64,000 bases of DNA from Acidobacteriota bacterium. Lineage in GTDB: Bacteria; Acidobacteriota; Terriglobia; Terriglobales; Acidobacteriaceae. The stretch is taken from assembly GCA_021846275.1 (NCBI GenBank), contig JAJZBZ010000003.1, positions 372,001 to 436,000 of the forward strand. The letters run 5' to 3'. Made by a program: the position numbers and the translations under genes. The notes under the pieces were generated by a model. The model ran no database searches, was not told where the DNA came from, and was given only the letters and a program-made list of their open reading frames with translations. This document shows positions 2,178 through 9,258 of this stretch, one piece after another. How positions within the stretch are numbered: the first letter of the stretch is position 1; the number at the start of each line of letters is the position of its first letter.

Positions 2178-2912
2178 TCAAGCCTTCAGCAGATTCGTAT
2201 AAATCGCCATCCCCGCCACAGCATCCACGCCCATCGCCTCCAGCGCGTCAATCTCCGCCTGGCTGCGAATCCCGCCCGCCACAATCAGCCTGCGCCGGGT
2301 CAGCGCTCGCAGCCGCTCGGCCACCTCCAGCGGAAACCCCTGCAACAATCCCTCGCCATCGATGTGCGTATAGAGATACCCATCCACACAGGGATCGAGC
2401 TGCGCCATCGCCTCGTCCGCCGCGAGCGCAATCGTCTTCTTCCATCCCTGAATCGCAATCCGTCCGCCGCGCGAATCCATCCCGGCCAGCACGCTTTCCG
2501 CGCCCACAGCCTCAGCCAACGCCTGCGCAAACTCCACGCGCACCACGCCTCGCAGCACGCCTCGCAAAGCGCCTTGTGCAGCGCCGCGCGCGACTCCACC
2601 CTCGTCCACTTCGGCAAACAGCGCCGAGCCAAGAATCACCTGCCGCGCGCCAGCCTCCAGCCTGCGCCGCGCCGCCTCCACCGTGCGAATCCCGCCGCCC
2701 ACCTGCACCGGCAGTCGCCGCGCAATCCGCTCCACCAGCGCCGTATTCTCGCCCGTGCCCATCGCCGCGTCCAGGTCAATCAACTGCACCCGCTCATACG
2801 CCGCGAACCGCTCCACCCAGTAATCAACATCGTCCGACGCCACGCGCAGCCGCTCGCCCTGCTCCAGTTGCACCACGCGCCCGCCCATCAGGTCAATCGA
2901 AGGAATCAGCAC
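2178..2912 (-). CDS. hisA: HisA, ProFAR isomerase
   Basis: Catalyses the Amadori isomerisation of ProFAR to PRFAR, the fourth histidine step. The 244-residue (beta/alpha)8 barrel has the expected first catalytic aspartate in [11 protein letters not shown] and the second in GMDSRGG, plus the phosphate-binding VGGGIR and VAGGIR motifs. It is the last gene of the minus-strand his operon; its ATG overlaps the end of hisF by 7 bases, which implies coupled translation. A strong terminator lies about 40 bases downstream. HisA length and motifs are complete. Confidence 0.96.
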
Positions 2913-3685
2913 GGATACCTCACCGCAACTCCGCGCCCGGCAAGCTGCGCCTTCAGCTCCCGCGCGCTCGCCACGCCAAAGTGAAAGATGCTCGCCGCCA
3001 GCGCCGCATCCGCGCGCCCCGCCGTAAACACCTCCGCAAAATGCTCCACGCTTCCCGCGCCGCCCGAGGCAATCACCGGAATGCTCGCCGCCCCGCTCAC
3101 CGCCGCCGTCAGTTCGCAGTCAAATCCCGCCCGCGTCCCGTCGGCATCCATCGACGTCAGCAGAATCTCGCCCGCGCCGCGCTCTTCGGCCTCGCGCGCC
3201 CACTCCATCACCGTCCGCCCCGCGTCGCGCCGTCCGCCATGCGTATACACCCGCGCGCCGAGCACCGGATCGGCGCCCGTCGCGCCGCGCCGCGCATCGA
3301 TCGCCACCACCACTGCCTGCGCGCCATACTCGGCCCCAATCCGCCCGATCAGCTCCGGCTCCGCCAGCGCCGCCGAGTTCAGGCTCACCTTGTCCGCGCC
3401 CGCCGCAAACACCGCAGCCGCGTCCTCCAGCGTGCGAATCCCGCCGCCCACCGTGAACGGCACAAATATCTGCTCCGCCGCGCGCCGCACCGCGTCCACC
3501 AGCGTCCCGCGCCCCTCATGCGTCGCCGTAATATCCAGCAGCACAATCTCGTCCGCGCCCGCCTCGGCATGCCGCCGCGCCAGCTCCGCCGGATCGCCCG
3601 CATCCACCAGGTCCACAAACTGCACACCCTTCACCACGCGCCCATCCCGCACATCCAGGCACGCAATCACCCTCCGCGTCAGCAT
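2906..3685 (-). CDS. hisF: HisF, imidazole glycerol phosphate synthase cyclase subunit
   Basis: HisF uses ammonia delivered by HisH to convert PRFAR into imidazole glycerol phosphate and AICAR. The protein starts at [15 protein letters not shown]; the ATG at 3685 is chosen because HisF homologues begin right there, although the frame stays open upstream. The 259-residue barrel has the catalytic aspartates in ACLDVRDG and AIDARRG and phosphate loops TVGGGIR and ASGGAG. It overlaps hisH upstream and hisA downstream by 7 bases each, consistent with equimolar, coupled synthesis of the HisF-HisH complex. Confidence 0.96.
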
Positions 3686-4299
3686 CCATCCATCTCCAGA
3701 AAATTCCGCAAAATCCGCAGTCCCGTCGCGCCCGATTTCTCCGGATGAAACTGCACGCCGCACACACGCCCGCGCTGGCTCGCCGAGGCAAACGCGCCCA
3801 TGTACTCCGTCACCGCCGCCGCATCCTCGCTCACCGGCGCGCGCCACCCGTGCGTGAAATACGCATGCTCCCCGCTCCCGACGCCGCGCATCAGCGGCGT
3901 CGCGCTCGCAATCTCCAACTCGTTCCATCCCACATGCGGCACTTTTTCACCACCCGCCGGAAACCTCGTCACCCGCCCGCGAAACCATCCCACGCCCGCA
4001 ACATCCGGAGCTTCCGTGCTGCCTTCGTAGAGCCACTGCATCCCCACGCAAATCCCCAGCAGCGGCACGCCTCGCGCCATCGCCCGCATCAGCGCCAGCT
4101 TCATCCCGCTCGCGTCCAGCCGCGCCGTCGCGCGAAAATGCCCCACGCCCGGCAGCACGATCCGCTGCGCCTGATCGATGTCCTCCGCGCGCTCGGTCAC
4201 GCTCACCTCGGCTCCCAGCGCGCGCAACGCCTTCTCGACCGACGCCAGATTCCCCGCCTTGTAATCGACCACCGTCACTCTCACAGCAAGCTCCGTCAC
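3679..4299 (-). CDS. hisH: HisH, imidazole glycerol phosphate synthase glutaminase subunit
   Basis: Class I glutamine amidotransferase that supplies ammonia to HisF. The 206-residue protein shows the nucleophile cysteine in LLGICVGMQ and the catalytic histidine and glutamate in VQFHPEKSG. The start is a GTG at 4299 overlapping the hisB stop (GTGA); a few residues downstream begins the conserved [10 protein letters not shown], so the true start could be slightly later. It overlaps hisF by 7 bases. Nothing unusual in length or motifs. Confidence 0.95.
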
Positions 4300-4940
4300 A
4301 GCAGGCCTTTCGTGCTCGGCAGCAGCTCCGCCATCTGCCGGTCGCGCGACGACGCCCCGCGCATCGCCCGCGCAAACGCCTTGAAACTCGCCTCGATCTT
4401 GTGATGATTGCTCCGCCCATACATCACCTTCACATGCACATTCGCCCGTGCCCCGCGCGCAAATCCCTCAAAAAAATCCACCACCAGCTCCGTCTGCAAA
4501 TCCCCCACCATCCGCGCCTTCACCTTCGTCTCCACGGCATACGCCGCGCGCCCGGAAAGGTCCACCGCCGCCACCGCCAGCGTCTCGTCCATCGGCATCA
4601 CAAAATATCCTGCCCTCAGAATCCCGCGCTTCTCGCCCAGCGCGCGATCAAACGCCTCGCCCAGCGCAATCCCCACGTCCTCCACCGTATGGTGCTGGTC
4701 CACATCCAGGTCGCCCTTGCACGTCAGCTCCAGATCGAACCCTCCATGCCGCGCAAACAGCTCCAGCATGTGATCGAAAAACCGAATCCCCGTCTTCACC
4801 CGGTACTGCCCGCGCCCTTCAATCGTCAGCCGCAGCACAATCGACGTCTCCGTCGTGTGGCGCATGATCTCGGCCTGCCGCACCGGCATCGTCTCCGCTC
4901 GGCCCTCCGCTTCGTTCTCCGTCAACATTTGCCCTCTCAT
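4296..4940 (-). CDS. hisB: HisB, imidazoleglycerol-phosphate dehydratase
   Basis: Dehydrates imidazole glycerol phosphate to imidazole acetol phosphate. Only the dehydratase is present, with no fused histidinol phosphatase. Manganese-binding repeats are visible in [31 protein letters not shown] and [12 protein letters not shown]. The ATG at 4940 overlaps the hisDC stop as ATGA and has a GGAGG seven bases upstream (inside hisC), giving 214 residues. ATGs at 4889 or 4865 would give the more usual 190-197 residues. A separate histidinol-phosphate phosphatase is not found in the operon. Confidence 0.94.
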
Positions 4941-7324
4941 CGCGTCGCCTCCGCCATCCGTTCCATTCCCAACTCCACCATCACCGCGCGCATCGCCCGC
5001 GCCGCACGCGCCATCTGCTCGCGCGTCCCCACCGTAATCCTCACCAGCCCGTCGCACCCAGGGTCCGCCGAGCGATCCCGCACCAGCACGCCCGCCTCGC
5101 GCATCCGCGCGCAGAACTCCCTGTGCCGCGAGCCGATCTCCACCAGCACAAAATTCGCCCGCGACGGCCATCGCCGCACGCCCATCCCATCCAGCGCCGC
5201 TTCAAACTCCCCGCGCGCCGCCAACACTTCGCTCACATACCGCGCCAGATGCGCTTCATCCTCCAGCGCCGCGCCCAGCGCCGTCAGCGCCGCCGCATTC
5301 ACGCTGTACGGCGACAGCACGCGCCGCACCCAGCGCAGATTCTCTCCGCGCCCCACCAGCGCGCCCAGCCGCAGCCCGGCCAGCCCGTATGCCTTGGAAA
5401 ACGTCCGCGCCACCAACAGATTCGGCACCATCCCGATCACGTCCATCAGCGTCTCGCCGTGAAAATGAAAGTACGCCTCATCCACCAGCACCATCGCCTG
5501 CGGCGCAGCCTCGGCCACGCACAGCAACTGCTCCCGCGTCGCCACCGATCCCGTCGGACTGTTCGGATTGGCAATCGCAATCAGCCGCGTCGCCGGCGTA
5601 ATCGCCCGCATCAGCCGCTCCGCCGGAAACGCAAAATCTTCCGCAGCCTCCACGCGCACCACGCGCGCATCCGTCGCCGCCGCATAAATCTCGTACATCG
5701 CATACGTCGGCACCGGCAGCAGCAGCTCATCGCCCGCATCCAGATACGTCTGGCACAGCAGATGAATCGCCTCATCCACGCCATTCGTCAGCACCACCTC
5801 CTCGGCCCCAACGCCCAGATGCGCCGCCACACGCGCCTCCATCGGTCCCCGCTCCGGATACCGCGTCAGCGCCTCGGCCGTCAGCCCGCGCAGCGCCTCC
5901 ACCACGCGCGGCGACGCGCCTTCCGTGTTCTCGTTGAAGTCCAGACGCAGCGCGCTCCGGTCGCCCAGCGGCGGATGATACTCCGGCATCCGCAGCACAA
6001 GCGCGCGCGGCGTCGGAAACCGCGTCGTCCCATCGTCCACATCGTCCTTCGCGCTCGCCTGCATCCGCTCGCGGATCGCCGCCTCGTGCCCGCGCAAACC
6101 CTCCGCCTGCGCCAGCCGCGCCGCATGCGGACCCAGTTCGGTCAGCGCGCGCGGCGAATACTCCTGCACCGTCATCAGCTTCAGAAAATCCATCACGCTC
6201 AGCCCGCCGCGCTGCGCCGCCTGTCCGCCCGTCGGCAGCGTGTGGTTCGGCCCCGAAACATAATCCCCCATCGGCTGCGGCGACCACGCGCCCACAAACA
6301 CGCTCCCCGCATTCCTCACCCACTCCACGTCCGCCGCCGCGTCCACCGTCAGGTGCTCGGCCGCCAGCCGATTCACCACCGCGCGCGCCTCGTCGCGTGT
6401 CGCCGCCACAAAAATATATCCATTCGCCGCCATCGCCTGCTGCGCCGTCTCATTCGTCGTGCGGCTCACTTCGGCCATCACCGCCTCGGCCAGCTCCGTC
6501 CGCGTCGTCACCATCACCGCCAGCGCATCCGGATCGTGCTCGGCCTGCGCCACCAGGTCCGCAGCAATCGCCCGCGCATCGCCCACCTCGCTCGCCACCA
6601 CAATCTCCGTCGGCCCGGCCTGCATATCGATCCCGCAGCCCGCCTGCCGCGCCACCAGCGCCTTGGCCGCCGTCACCCACCGATTCCCCGGTCCCACAAT
6701 CTTCCTCACCGGCAGAATCGTCTCCGTCCCCCACCCGAGCGCCGCCACCGCCTGCGCCCCGCCCACGCGATAGAACTCCGTCACGCCCAGCAGGTGCGCC
6801 GTCGCCAGCGTCTCCGCCGCCGGATTCGGCGAGACCACCACAATCCGCTCCACGCCCGCCACCTGCGCCGGAATCACCGTCATCCCCATCGTCGAAGGCA
6901 GCGGATGCCGACCGCCCGGCACATAGCAGCCCACCGCGTCCAGCGCGCGAACTCGCTGCCCGACGCGCAGCCCGCTCGCTTCCATTTCTTCAAATTCGCG
7001 CGGCATCTGCCGCTCGGCAAACCGCCGTACGCGCGCCGCCGCCACGCGCAGCGCCTCCTGCAACGCCGCGTCCAGCCCGTCCCACGCCCGCCGCATCTCG
7101 TCGCAGGAAACGCGCAGCGCCACACCCTCCTGCAATCCATCCCACTCCATCGCAAACCGCCGCAGCGCCGCGTCGCCCTCCGTGCGCACCGCCTCCACCA
7201 TCGCCTCCGCACGCGGCATCGCGGCATCCACCGCCGCGCCCCCGCGCATCTCCAGCCGTCGCAGTGCGGCTTCCGCCTGCCTGCGATCTTCTTCGTTCGT
7301 GGAGCACAAAACATACCGTTGCAT
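4937..7324 (-). CDS. hisDC: HisD-HisC fusion: histidinol dehydrogenase / histidinol-phosphate aminotransferase
   Basis: One uninterrupted 795-codon frame encodes two his enzymes. Residues about 1-425 are histidinol dehydrogenase, with all active-site elements present: [13 protein letters not shown], the metal-ligand GDYVSGPNH and the late histidine in LRGHEAAI. A short linker rich in charged residues (around DDVDDGTT) leads to residues about 445-795, a class I/II PLP aminotransferase with [26 protein letters not shown] and the Schiff-base lysine in [10 protein letters not shown]. HisC makes histidinol phosphate; HisD performs the last two oxidations. The ATG at 7324 has GGGAGA nine bases upstream; ATG 7333 and GTG 7402 are alternatives. 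No frameshift or internal restart signal was seen. The stop overlaps hisB as ATGA. Confidence 0.95.
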
Positions 7325-7405
7325 CCTGGCCATTCTCCCGCTCGTACCGTCCTGAAAAATCCGGCCCTGTTCGCTACCAGAGCCGTTCCCTTCGCACGCC
7401 ACCGC

Positions 7406-8281
7406 TCACAGCACCACCTTGTTCAGCGGATACTCCACAATCCCCGTCGCGCCCGCGTCCTTCAGCCGCGGCACCACCTCGCGCACCGCTGCTTCCTCCA
7501 GAATCGTGTTCACCGCCACCCACTCCGGGTTGCTCTGCTCGGAGATCGTCGGCGAGTTCAGCGCCGGCAACACCGCCAGCACCTGGTCCAGATCGCCGCG
7601 CCGCACATTCAGCATCAGCCCCACCTGCCGCTGCGCGTCAATCGCCGCCCGCAGCATCAGCGCCAGCGAATCCAGCTTCCGCCGCTTCCACGCGTCCTCA
7701 CACGCCGCCCGGCTCGCAATCAGATGCGTCTCGCTCTCCATCACCGTGTCAATAATCGCCAGACGATTCGCGCGCAGGCTGCTGCCCGTCTCCGTCACCT
7801 CCACAATCGCATCCGCCAGCATCGGCGGCTTCACCTCCGTCGCGCCCCAGCTGAACTCCACCTTCACCGTCACGCCCTTCTGCTCGAAGTAGCGCCGCGT
7901 CACCTCCACCAGCTCCGTCGCCACAATCTTGCCTTCCAGATCCTCGGCCCGCGTAATCCCCGAACCCTCCGGCACCGCCAGCACCCACCTCACCTTGCGC
8001 CGACTCTGCTTGGCATAGGTCAGCGACGTAATGCTCGTCAGCTCCAGCCCGCTCTCCACCACCCAGTCAATCCCCGTCAGCCCCGCGTCCAGCGCCCCGT
8101 GGTCCACATACCGCGCCATCTCCTGCGCGCGAATCAGCATGCACTCAATCTCCGGATCATCAATCGACGGAAAGTACGACCGCCCGTCGGCATAGATATT
8201 CCAGCCCGCCCGCTGGAACAGCGCAATCGTCGCATCCTGCAAACTTCCCTTCGGAATTCCCAGCCGCAGCTTACCCGACAT
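7406..8281 (-). CDS. hisG: HisG, ATP phosphoribosyltransferase (long form)
   Basis: First enzyme of histidine synthesis, joining ATP and PRPP. At 291 residues it is the long form: two catalytic lobes ([10 protein letters not shown] at the N-terminus, [10 protein letters not shown], and a PRPP-binding loop around [17 protein letters not shown]) followed by a C-terminal regulatory domain of the kind that binds histidine for feedback inhibition. HisZ is therefore not needed. The ATG at 8281 is chosen because the conserved [12 protein letters not shown] begins there; the frame is open further upstream only inside hisI. It overlaps hisI by 11 bases. hisDC starts 81 bases after the stop. Confidence 0.96.
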
Positions 8282-8666
8282 TCGCCACCTCCGCCGCAAT
8301 CTCGCCCTGCGCCGATTCCATCTGCGCCGTGCGGATCGACTTCGTGAAGCACGAAACCGTCCCCTCGTGACACACCAGACCGTCGCCCTCCACCACCACG
8401 CGAAAGACGATCGCGTCGTTGTCGCAATCCGTCGCAGCCTCGACAATCCGCAGCCGATTCCCGCTCGACTCGCCCTTCATCCACAGCTTCTGCCGCGTCC
8501 TGCTCCAGAACGTCACAAAGCCCGACTCCAGGCTCATCGCATAGCTCGTCTCGTTCAGAAATCCAACCATCAACACCTCGCCCGTCGCGGCATCCTGCAC
8601 CACGCCCGGCACCAGTCCATCCAGCTTGCTGAAATCCAATTCAGGGTTCATCCCATCACGATTCAT
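8271..8666 (-). CDS. hisI: HisI, phosphoribosyl-AMP cyclohydrolase
   Basis: Opens the purine ring of PR-AMP, the third histidine step. The 131-residue protein shows the Mg-binding ATDCDNDA motif and the zinc cysteines in CDND and VCHEGTVSC. It lacks the HisE (PR-ATP pyrophosphatase) domain that is fused in many bacteria, and no hisE is seen in this window. It is the first structural gene of the operon, with AAGGA seven bases before the ATG, and lies 65 bases downstream of the attenuator terminator. Confidence 0.95.
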
Positions 8667-8730: not shown

Positions 8731-8763
8731 CAAAAAATAAGCCCGCCGATGGGGTCGGCGGGC
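8731..8763 (-). terminator. his attenuator: intrinsic terminator in the operon leader
   Basis: On the minus strand 8763-8755 pairs perfectly with 8749-8741 (nine base pairs, mostly G-C, five-base loop), followed by TTATTTTTTG at 8740-8731. The T tract exists only on the minus strand, so it acts on his transcription. It lies between the leader peptide and hisI and would stop transcription when histidine is plentiful. Confidence 0.88.
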
Positions 8764-8822
8764 AGTCCAGAGGAGGATACTTTTACTGTCTATATACCTC
8801 AGCTAGAATCATGGCTGCCCGC
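8758..8822 (-). promoter_or_regulatory. his antiterminator pairing region
   Basis: GCGGGCAG (minus strand 8822-8815, within leader-peptide codons 17-20) is exactly complementary to CTGCCCGC (8765-8758), whose last six bases belong to the 5' arm of the terminator. The two structures are mutually exclusive. A ribosome stalled on the His codons leaves 8822-8815 free to form the antiterminator; one that reaches the stop codon (8811-8809) covers it and lets the terminator form. A competing upstream hairpin, TGCATG-AACTC-CATGCA, lies around 8840-8824. Confidence 0.75.
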
Positions 8823-8874
8823 ATGCATGGAGTTCATGCAAGTGGTGCAAATCGTGATGGTAGCTGCGACTCAT
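8809..8874 (-). CDS. hisL: his operon leader peptide (histidine-rich)
   Basis: A 21-codon frame, ATG at 8874 to TGA at 8809. Residues 5-16 read YHHDLHHLHELH, so six of 21 residues are histidine, with two His-His pairs. It lies between a consensus promoter and the attenuator, exactly where a ribosome-sensing leader peptide is needed. There is no Shine-Dalgarno sequence, and the predicted transcript start is at or just before the ATG, so translation may be leaderless. Two in-frame ATGs at 8907 and 8904 would add 11 residues but overlap the promoter. The mechanism is known from enterobacterial his operons; its presence here is read from sequence only. Confidence 0.85.
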   Translation of the reverse strand: MSRSYHHDLHHLHELHACGQP

Positions 8875-8882
8875 CTTCTGCG

Positions 8883-8912
8883 AAGATAAGCAAAAGGCGC
8901 GCATCATGTCAA
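8883..8912 (-). promoter_or_regulatory. his operon promoter
   Basis: Minus strand TTGACA at 8912-8907 and TATCTT at 8888-8883 with an 18-base spacer. An A tract lies directly upstream (8922-8916). The expected transcription start, about 8876, coincides with the leader-peptide ATG. Confidence 0.7.
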
Positions 8913-8976: not shown

Positions 8977-9258
8977 GTGAAATCAGCTTTTCAATATCCC
9001 TGTCTCCTCGCGCTTCTGGCGGCAATTCTCATTCCGCGCCCGCTTTCCGCCAGCGAAAATTCCCCCCTCGACATCAACTCCGCCACGTATTCTCAGCTCC
9101 TGCGGCTCCACGGCATGACCCCCGTCTGGGCGCGCCGCATCCTGCGCTTCCGCCCCTACACCGCAAAGAACGAGCTCTACACCCGCGGCATCGTCTCCCT
9201 CGACGAGTACTACCGCATCGAAGACCAGATCGTCGCCCACCGTGCTCACCGCCACTGA
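8977..9258 (+). CDS. small exported helix-hairpin-helix protein, ComEA-like
   Basis: A 93-residue protein with a signal peptide (MKSAFQYPCLLALLAAILIP, cleavage near LSA-SE), then a helix-hairpin-helix DNA-binding type fold seen in LDINSATYSQLLRLHGMTP. ComEA proteins bind incoming DNA during competence; short periplasmic HhH proteins of this sort are common and often not tested. It is divergent from the his operon with a 100-base gap to the his promoter. No other competence gene is nearby, so a DNA-uptake role is only inference. Confidence 0.7.
   Translation: MKSAFQYPCLLALLAAILIPRPLSASENSPLDINSATYSQLLRLHGMTPVWARRILRFRPYTAKNELYTRGIVSLDEYYRIEDQIVAHRAHRH

Follow-up and report, generated by a model that had tools for sequence, protein, structure and literature searches.

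A putative ribosome-mediated attenuator with a probably leaderless sensor frame ahead of the histidine operon in Acidobacteriota

Is the short histidine-rich reading frame that lies between a promoter and an intrinsic terminator, just ahead of a his operon in this 3.34 Mb Acidobacteriota genome, the sensor of a transcription attenuator, and by what route would a ribosome enter it? A sequence-only reading of the window, by which we mean the whole 64-kb stretch of DNA that was analysed, had proposed control by leader-peptide attenuation, and the comparative tests described below, which concern the conserved frame, the covarying helices and the association with hisI, support this proposal. We put at roughly 0.9 the probability that a ribosome here controls transcription of the his operon by attenuation, translating a sensor frame that has a leaderless start.

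Parts of the element and the operon behind it

All parts of the element are on the minus strand. The sequence and a promoter scan give a near-consensus promoter, with a -35 hexamer, TTGACA, at 8907..8912 and a -10 hexamer, TATCTT, at 8883..8888, separated by a spacer of 18 nt. The his leader frame, MSRSYHHDLHHLHELHACGQP (8809..8874), comprises 21 codons, six of them for His, and runs from an ATG at 8874-8872, which begins 8 nt past the -10 hexamer, to a TGA at 8811-8809; it is putatively leaderless, the transcription start being expected ∼7-9 nt past the -10 hexamer, i.e. at the ATG or 1-2 nt before it. Inside leader codons 18-20 lies the 5' arm of an antiterminator, GCGGGCAG (8815..8822), referred to in what follows as region 2. 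Its partner, the 3' arm CTGCCCGC (8758..8765), is a perfect 8-bp complement (8822-8815 with 8765-8758) and overlaps the 5' arm of the terminator (region 3). The intrinsic terminator itself, GCCCGCCGA-CCCCA-TCGGCGGGC (8741..8763), is a 9 bp stem made up of regions 3 and 4, and is followed by a T-rich tract, TTATTTTTTG (8731..8740), the expected 3' end of a short RNA for which the coordinates (∼8875 to 8731) predict a length of ∼145 nt. A further hairpin of region 1 with region 2 (8797..8869), predicted by RNAalifold and clade-specific, would mask the antiterminator arm whenever no ribosome is stalled on the leader. The promoter, the six-His frame of 21 codons, the 9-bp terminator and hisI had all been reported before, and all are read directly from the sequence; the 8-bp antiterminator likewise stands as a perfect helix overlapping the terminator 5' arm, with its position corrected from leader codons 17-20 to 18-20.

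The element stands out above chance. Both strands of the window were scanned for short frames that open with ATG or GTG less than 12 codons ahead of a His cluster and stop within 45 codons; a single case had six His among 12 residues, and the one other frame listed had 4 His. Promoter-like sites numbered 2, one of them the leader promoter, vs 0.4 expected, and terminator-like sites 1 vs 0.3 expected. The leader fold has a z-score of -3.4, with 0 of 200 shuffles equally stable.

The genes that follow the leader on the minus strand are ordered hisI-G-DC-B-H-F-A. The first structural gene, hisI (8271..8666), scores 127 bits against NF000768 (cut-off 126). Next is hisG (7406..8446), over cut-off with both TIGR00070 and TIGR03455; the matches start at residue 60 and the true start is probably inside this ORF. 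A single 821-aa frame (4937..7402) carries hisD and hisC, the hisD part matching TIGR00069 over cut-off (residues 66-446) and the hisC part TIGR01141 with 266.6 bits (residues 469-805), just under the cut-off of 276.55. There follow hisB (4296..5171; NF002111, 253.9 bits, cut-off 231), hisH (3679..4299; TIGR01855 over cut-off), hisF (2906..3928; TIGR00735 over cut-off) and hisA (2178..2912), the last scoring 150 bits with TIGR00007, under the cut-off of 228.95, so that its name is assigned from best match and position. The HisD and HisC motifs could be assessed in 43 of 80 named relatives, the frame being joined in the 5 closest (L046-L050) and separate in 38, which looks like a gene fusion specific to the clade. 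Divergent from the his promoter, on the plus strand, is a 93-aa frame (8977-9258) that presumably encodes a small helix-hairpin-helix (ComEA-like) protein. By hisI the closest named relatives are Acidobacteriaceae, namely Acidicapsa, Terracidiphilus, Edaphobacter and Granulicella, together with many metagenome-assembled genomes.

Conservation of the frame, its start and its place

The comparison rests on 155 hisI loci, 95 near (L031-L125, some genomes being represented twice) and 60 far (L126-L185), the far loci and those of the phylum set having been hand-picked from match lists, within the family for low hisI identity and from other families by best score and then for spread. A leader was counted when a frame starting with ATG and holding four or more His within 12 residues lay at most 450 nt upstream of hisI; the leader ATG was taken as the nearest in-frame ATG upstream of the His block, and promoter position was not used in this choice. 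Such a frame is present at 148 of the 155 loci. The seven misses are L033, which was read in the wrong orientation and was counted as a miss, L047 and L129 at contig ends, L173, where the leader is present but starts with GTG, and the far loci L183-L185, in which no leader was found in the 450 nt upstream of hisI; L181, where a stop is near the assumed hisI start, was kept among the counted loci. With L173 taken as having a leader, none was found in 4 of the 60 far loci. Removal of identical -40..+100 sequences leaves 139 distinct leaders of 19-31 residues with 5-10 His each (mean 7.1). The conservation in relatives that the sequence-only reading had predicted for the His frame and the stems is thus found, both helices covarying as set out below.

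Most of the relatives fetched have a dense His block, as in HRHHGHHHHH or MQSLRHHGHHHHHGTSMPADCHGLK; the scattered His codons noted earlier are a feature of the window's small clade and do not describe the family of elements at large. The window's own leader, with the same 48 nt upstream, recurs in the genus-mate G001 (L040) and in Acidicapsa dinghuensis (L058). Among 83 aligned Acidobacteriaceae leaders the GCG of region 2 is invariant (83/83), and in 77 it stands in a single reading phase to the ATG. Pairwise differences over five aligned His-block codons fall on positions 1:2:3 in the ratio 1785:3197:6703; reading phase and third-position bias together show, as far as aligned sequences can, a coding constraint on the leader. 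Within a clade the residues that follow the His block, e.g. SVLAAVSG or MPADC, tend to be kept. The leaders of the window and of L046 have 2 nt fewer after the His block than that of L048 (L048:4793-4942) and so end in a different frame (ACGQP/ACGQS) with an earlier stop, an antiterminator helix being kept.

The start of the frame is conserved as well. TTGAC is found 33-45 nt before the leader ATG in 128 of the 139 distinct loci, with 78 occurrences at -38/-39, and all 128 have TAnnnT at a spacer of 16-19, a count that falls to 1-7 if the spacer is moved by 6 or 9; the end of the -10 element is 8-10 nt from the ATG in 93 of the 128. Only 5 of 139 leaders have a Shine-Dalgarno 4-mer (AGGA, GGAG, GAGG) ahead of them; in the same loci such 4-mers precede 179 of the 360 first ATGs that open long ORFs, and 388 of 2780 positions taken at random. 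Because the promoter-to-AUG spacing is conserved and Shine-Dalgarno motifs are rare, a strong though indirect argument, the leader frame looks leaderless, with the RNA 5' end probably at the AUG or a few nt from it. The absence of a ribosome site that had been remarked on before can therefore be restated as a conserved, apparently leaderless start. Predicted leaderless genes make up on average 13.3% of three Acidobacteria genomes, with a range of 9.7-19.4%, according to the part of PMC3160421 available to us.

A covariance model of the leader was searched in 120 Acidobacteriaceae genomes, a match with E < 1e-10 being called strong. There is one strong match per genome in 83 of them, which are also 83 of the 85 genomes with hisI, and in all 83 it shares the strand of the hisI match and precedes it by 6-133 nt. 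The two hisI genomes that have no strong match, G073 and G080, have hisI 60 nt from, or at, a contig end. Strong matches were found in 0 of the 35 Acidobacteriaceae genomes that have no hisI, and eight genomes of this search gave weak matches only. The 35 genomes with no hisI match at E 1e-15 (G015, G018, G024, G089 and others), several of them near complete, are possibly histidine auxotrophs or have a diverged hisI.

Across the phylum, strong matches occur in 26 of 247 genomes, every one of family f1, and 70 of the 247 reach E 0.01; the weak matches (E 1e-5 to 0.01) of the family and phylum searches include some away from hisI. Eight genomes, from f35, f48 and f26, have moderate matches (E 4e-7 to 7e-5) directly upstream of hisI, and a moderate match also falls on the leader at L254 (f69). 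The families in which a leader adjoins hisI are f1, f2, f5, f17, f26, f48, f60, f46, f35 and f64, that of f64 (L182) being the least typical. None was found near hisI in 40 further, chosen phylum genomes, but in two of these a leader stands ahead of hisG, ∼5 kb upstream (f69, L254; f20, L255), and extending the upstream DNA for 20 of the 40 added one more, in f27 (L272, G263), behind which come a terminator-like hairpin and a frame resembling HisZ (TIGR00443, 167 bits, under the cut-off of 271.65). The remaining 37 have no leader within the DNA fetched. With at least 13 families represented, the element is widespread in Acidobacteriota, though apparently not present throughout.

A wider use of the design was looked for before two other genes. 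No leader of the same grammar was found before ilvB-type or trpE-type genes at 15 loci each in 15 genomes, where 13 of 15 loci of each type score over the family cut-off and the gene need not be the first of its operon; the same search recovered 138 of the 155 his loci as a positive control, one frame being non-His. The combination of a promoter, a start codon and four or more His within 12 residues occurred 0 times in the 266,572 strand-bases of these 30 control loci, so that its presence in the window is more than chance.

Exclusive helices and competing explanations

The helices were examined in the alignment of 83 Acidobacteriaceae leaders. In the antiterminator 91.4% of cells are paired, and sliding the partner by 1-3 columns lowers this to 33.6-41.4%; for the terminator the corresponding values are 84.0% and 29.5-43.1%. 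Cells changed on both sides of a pair number 46 in the antiterminator (shuffle mean 19.9) and 74 in the terminator (shuffle mean 32.7), in each case with 0 of 500 shuffles as high, these controls treating as independent samples relatives that share descent. Of the five measures taken, two, the counts of pairs with double change and of further pair types, showed no excess over shuffles, either in the antiterminator (76 and 347 of 500 shuffles as high) or in the terminator (422 and 500 of 500). Without any structure as input, RNAalifold returned seven of the ten antiterminator pairs and no others. When arms were swapped between loci, own arms gave 24.0, swapped arms 20.5 and shuffled arms 17.1, and own arms exceeded the mean swap at 117 of 139 loci (near 75/84, far Acidobacteriaceae 22/33, others 20/22). 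Beyond Acidobacteriaceae (22 loci) the values are 20.4 for own and 18.3 for swapped arms, and the antiterminator is less clear there. Terminator and antiterminator are mutually exclusive, and both covary.

By RNAalifold the region 1:2 hairpin has -24.3 kcal/mol in the window's clade (5 sequences) and -29.2 in the window alone, -10.5 in the SVLAAVSG clade (26 sequences), and -5.3 and -0.9 in the other two groups (31 and 13 sequences), 75 of the 83 sequences having been grouped for this folding. A simple terminator finder detected nothing in 18 of 93 near loci and only weak hairpins in some others, mainly with leaders of the SVLAAVSG type; the 18 misses arise because it allows only one mismatch and short loops, and in the alignment these leaders have an interrupted terminator stem with a T-tract. 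Comparison thus establishes a conserved frame, a conserved promoter spacing, two exclusive covarying helices and a fixed place before his genes.

These observations bear on two readings in which transcription control in cis is not the main function. The leader might raise translation of hisI by termination-reinitiation, and a coupling role has been proposed for short leader genes near a main gene, with a distance peak that extends to Acidobacteria (PMC4833913, in the part available); here, however, the leader stop is ∼140 nt before hisI (8809 to 8666) with a terminator in between, and this terminator covaries together with the antiterminator, so that coupling of this kind is very improbable. 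Alternatively the short transcript or its peptide might act in trans, as with rnTrpL/peTrpL of Sinorhizobium, control of hisI in cis then being secondary. A leaderless leader frame has a precedent in that system (available part of PMC7298713), and the clade-specific conservation of the post-His residues SVLAAVSG and MPADC would suit a peptide with a function of its own. The conserved stretch is, however, region 2, and changes in it, including ones that alter the amino acid (Pro/Ser), are matched in region 3, as in aligned columns 76/174 of the antiterminator, where UA is found 45 times, CG 21, UG 9 and other combinations 7. To action in trans we give the same small credence as to coupling.

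Two further explanations are more remote still. T-boxes control his genes in Firmicutes (PMC9413887, in the part available), which is what commends a T-box or some other riboswitch, yet a T-box has no need of a conserved His frame, and 16 relatives match no Rfam 15 family at gathering apart from two cobalamin riboswitches elsewhere in L053; the window yields five Rfam matches up to E 10, all far under gathering and none a T-box, and we regard this explanation as hardly credible. The five, anti-hemB, Betaproteobacteria_toxic_sRNA, Pseudomon-1, suhB and MIR834, were set aside as chance matches or terminator look-alikes. The cobalamin riboswitches of L053 stand in tandem on the minus strand within ∼520 bases (L053:1422-1613 and 1760-1937). 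With up to 10 His encoded, the frames could also be those of an unrelated metal-binding micropeptide that happens to precede hisI, but such a coincidence is scarcely conceivable when the strong copies lie directly upstream of hisI in 83 of 83 Acidobacteriaceae genomes and the same stretch has a terminator and an antiterminator built into it.

Proposed mechanism, precedents and significance

For the attenuator reading we infer transcription start, translation, stalling, termination and response to histidine as follows. RNA polymerase would start at the AUG or within ∼2 nt of it, and a ribosome would load at the 5' end with no use of a Shine-Dalgarno site. When His-tRNA is charged, the ribosome would pass the His codons and then region 2, which in the window is formed by codons 18-20; this region would be covered or refolded with the His-codon region, and region 3 would pair with region 4, ending transcription near 8731. 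When His-tRNA is short, the ribosome would stall in the His codons, cover region 1 and free region 2, which would pair with region 3 as the antiterminator; no terminator would form and hisI-G-DC-B-H-F-A would be transcribed. In the window, where the frame has 21 codons and stops right after region 2, a ribosome standing on the stop codon would be enough to mask that region. As a general model, coverage of region 2 by a stop-codon ribosome was rejected, as it fits the window but not leaders of 25-28 codons, in which the stop is ∼20 nt past region 2, an argument that assumes a ribosome footprint of ∼28 nt (an estimate). Because the stop is so far past region 2 in those leaders, we provisionally prefer a model in which region 2 refolds with the His-codon region, although the support for this hairpin is uneven across clades.

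How does this compare with known systems? The window's five matches up to E 10 do not include Rfam His_leader (RF00514), the enterobacterial his leader or hisL attenuator, and none of 16 relatives matches it at gathering, in agreement with the earlier claim of an unrelated sequence. Like enterobacterial hisL, the element combines a leader frame rich in His codons with an antiterminator and an intrinsic terminator that exclude each other, upstream of a his operon. The logic of his leader-peptide attenuation is therefore known; what appear new are the unrelated sequence, the leaderless frame, the arm inside the frame and the phylum. Mycobacterial polycysteine leaderless short ORFs reportedly act as attenuators (a 2020 study by Canestrari et al.), and these differ in their amino acid, cysteine, and in belonging to Actinobacteria. 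Unlike hisL (PMC3896937), the acidobacterial leader lacks a Shine-Dalgarno site and has its promoter directly at the AUG, its antiterminator arm is inside the leader frame, and hisI or hisG/hisZ comes first, in another phylum.

The earlier statement, which places such attenuation in enterobacteria, is correct but needs widening, since candidate his attenuators have also been described from the Bacillus cereus group, Eubacteriales and Erysipelotrichales (PMC9413887), and from bacilli before hisZ and hisS* (PMC2965389). By description they resemble the present element, with a His-rich leader peptide and alternative hairpins outside Proteobacteria; they differ by phylum, and the available parts of both papers make no mention of leaderless starts. 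The start predicted here would have a counterpart in Sinorhizobium meliloti trpL (rnTrpL), an attenuator whose leaderless frame puts the ATG at the very beginning of the RNA; it senses Trp and not His, and both a peptide and an RNA are reported to act in trans in that system (PMC7298713). A search of the open literature turned up no account of his attenuation in this phylum, the likeliest place for one, Lopatovskaya et al. (2010), being outside the search.

It is tempting to go one step further and to see in the leaderless start a working part of the switch, and in this start together with the in-frame antiterminator arm a separately evolved, old attenuator design of the Acidobacteriota; this we offer tentatively, as an idea that is rather doubtful. 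If it were true, the ribosome would load on the 5'-terminal AUG as soon as this leaves RNA polymerase, such 5' loading would provide the tight coupling in place of the enterobacterial pause hairpin, and histidine synthesis would be tied not only to His-tRNA charging but to the factors that favour leaderless initiation, such as initiation-factor levels and stress. A his attenuator with a proposed mechanism is here assigned in a common soil phylum, and its leaders form a small, comparable collection in which the coupling of leaderless translation to transcription can be studied. They also supply a signature by which annotators can recognise a small gene without a match in Rfam 15. The unrelated sequence and the leaderless sensor bear on whether his attenuators arose repeatedly.
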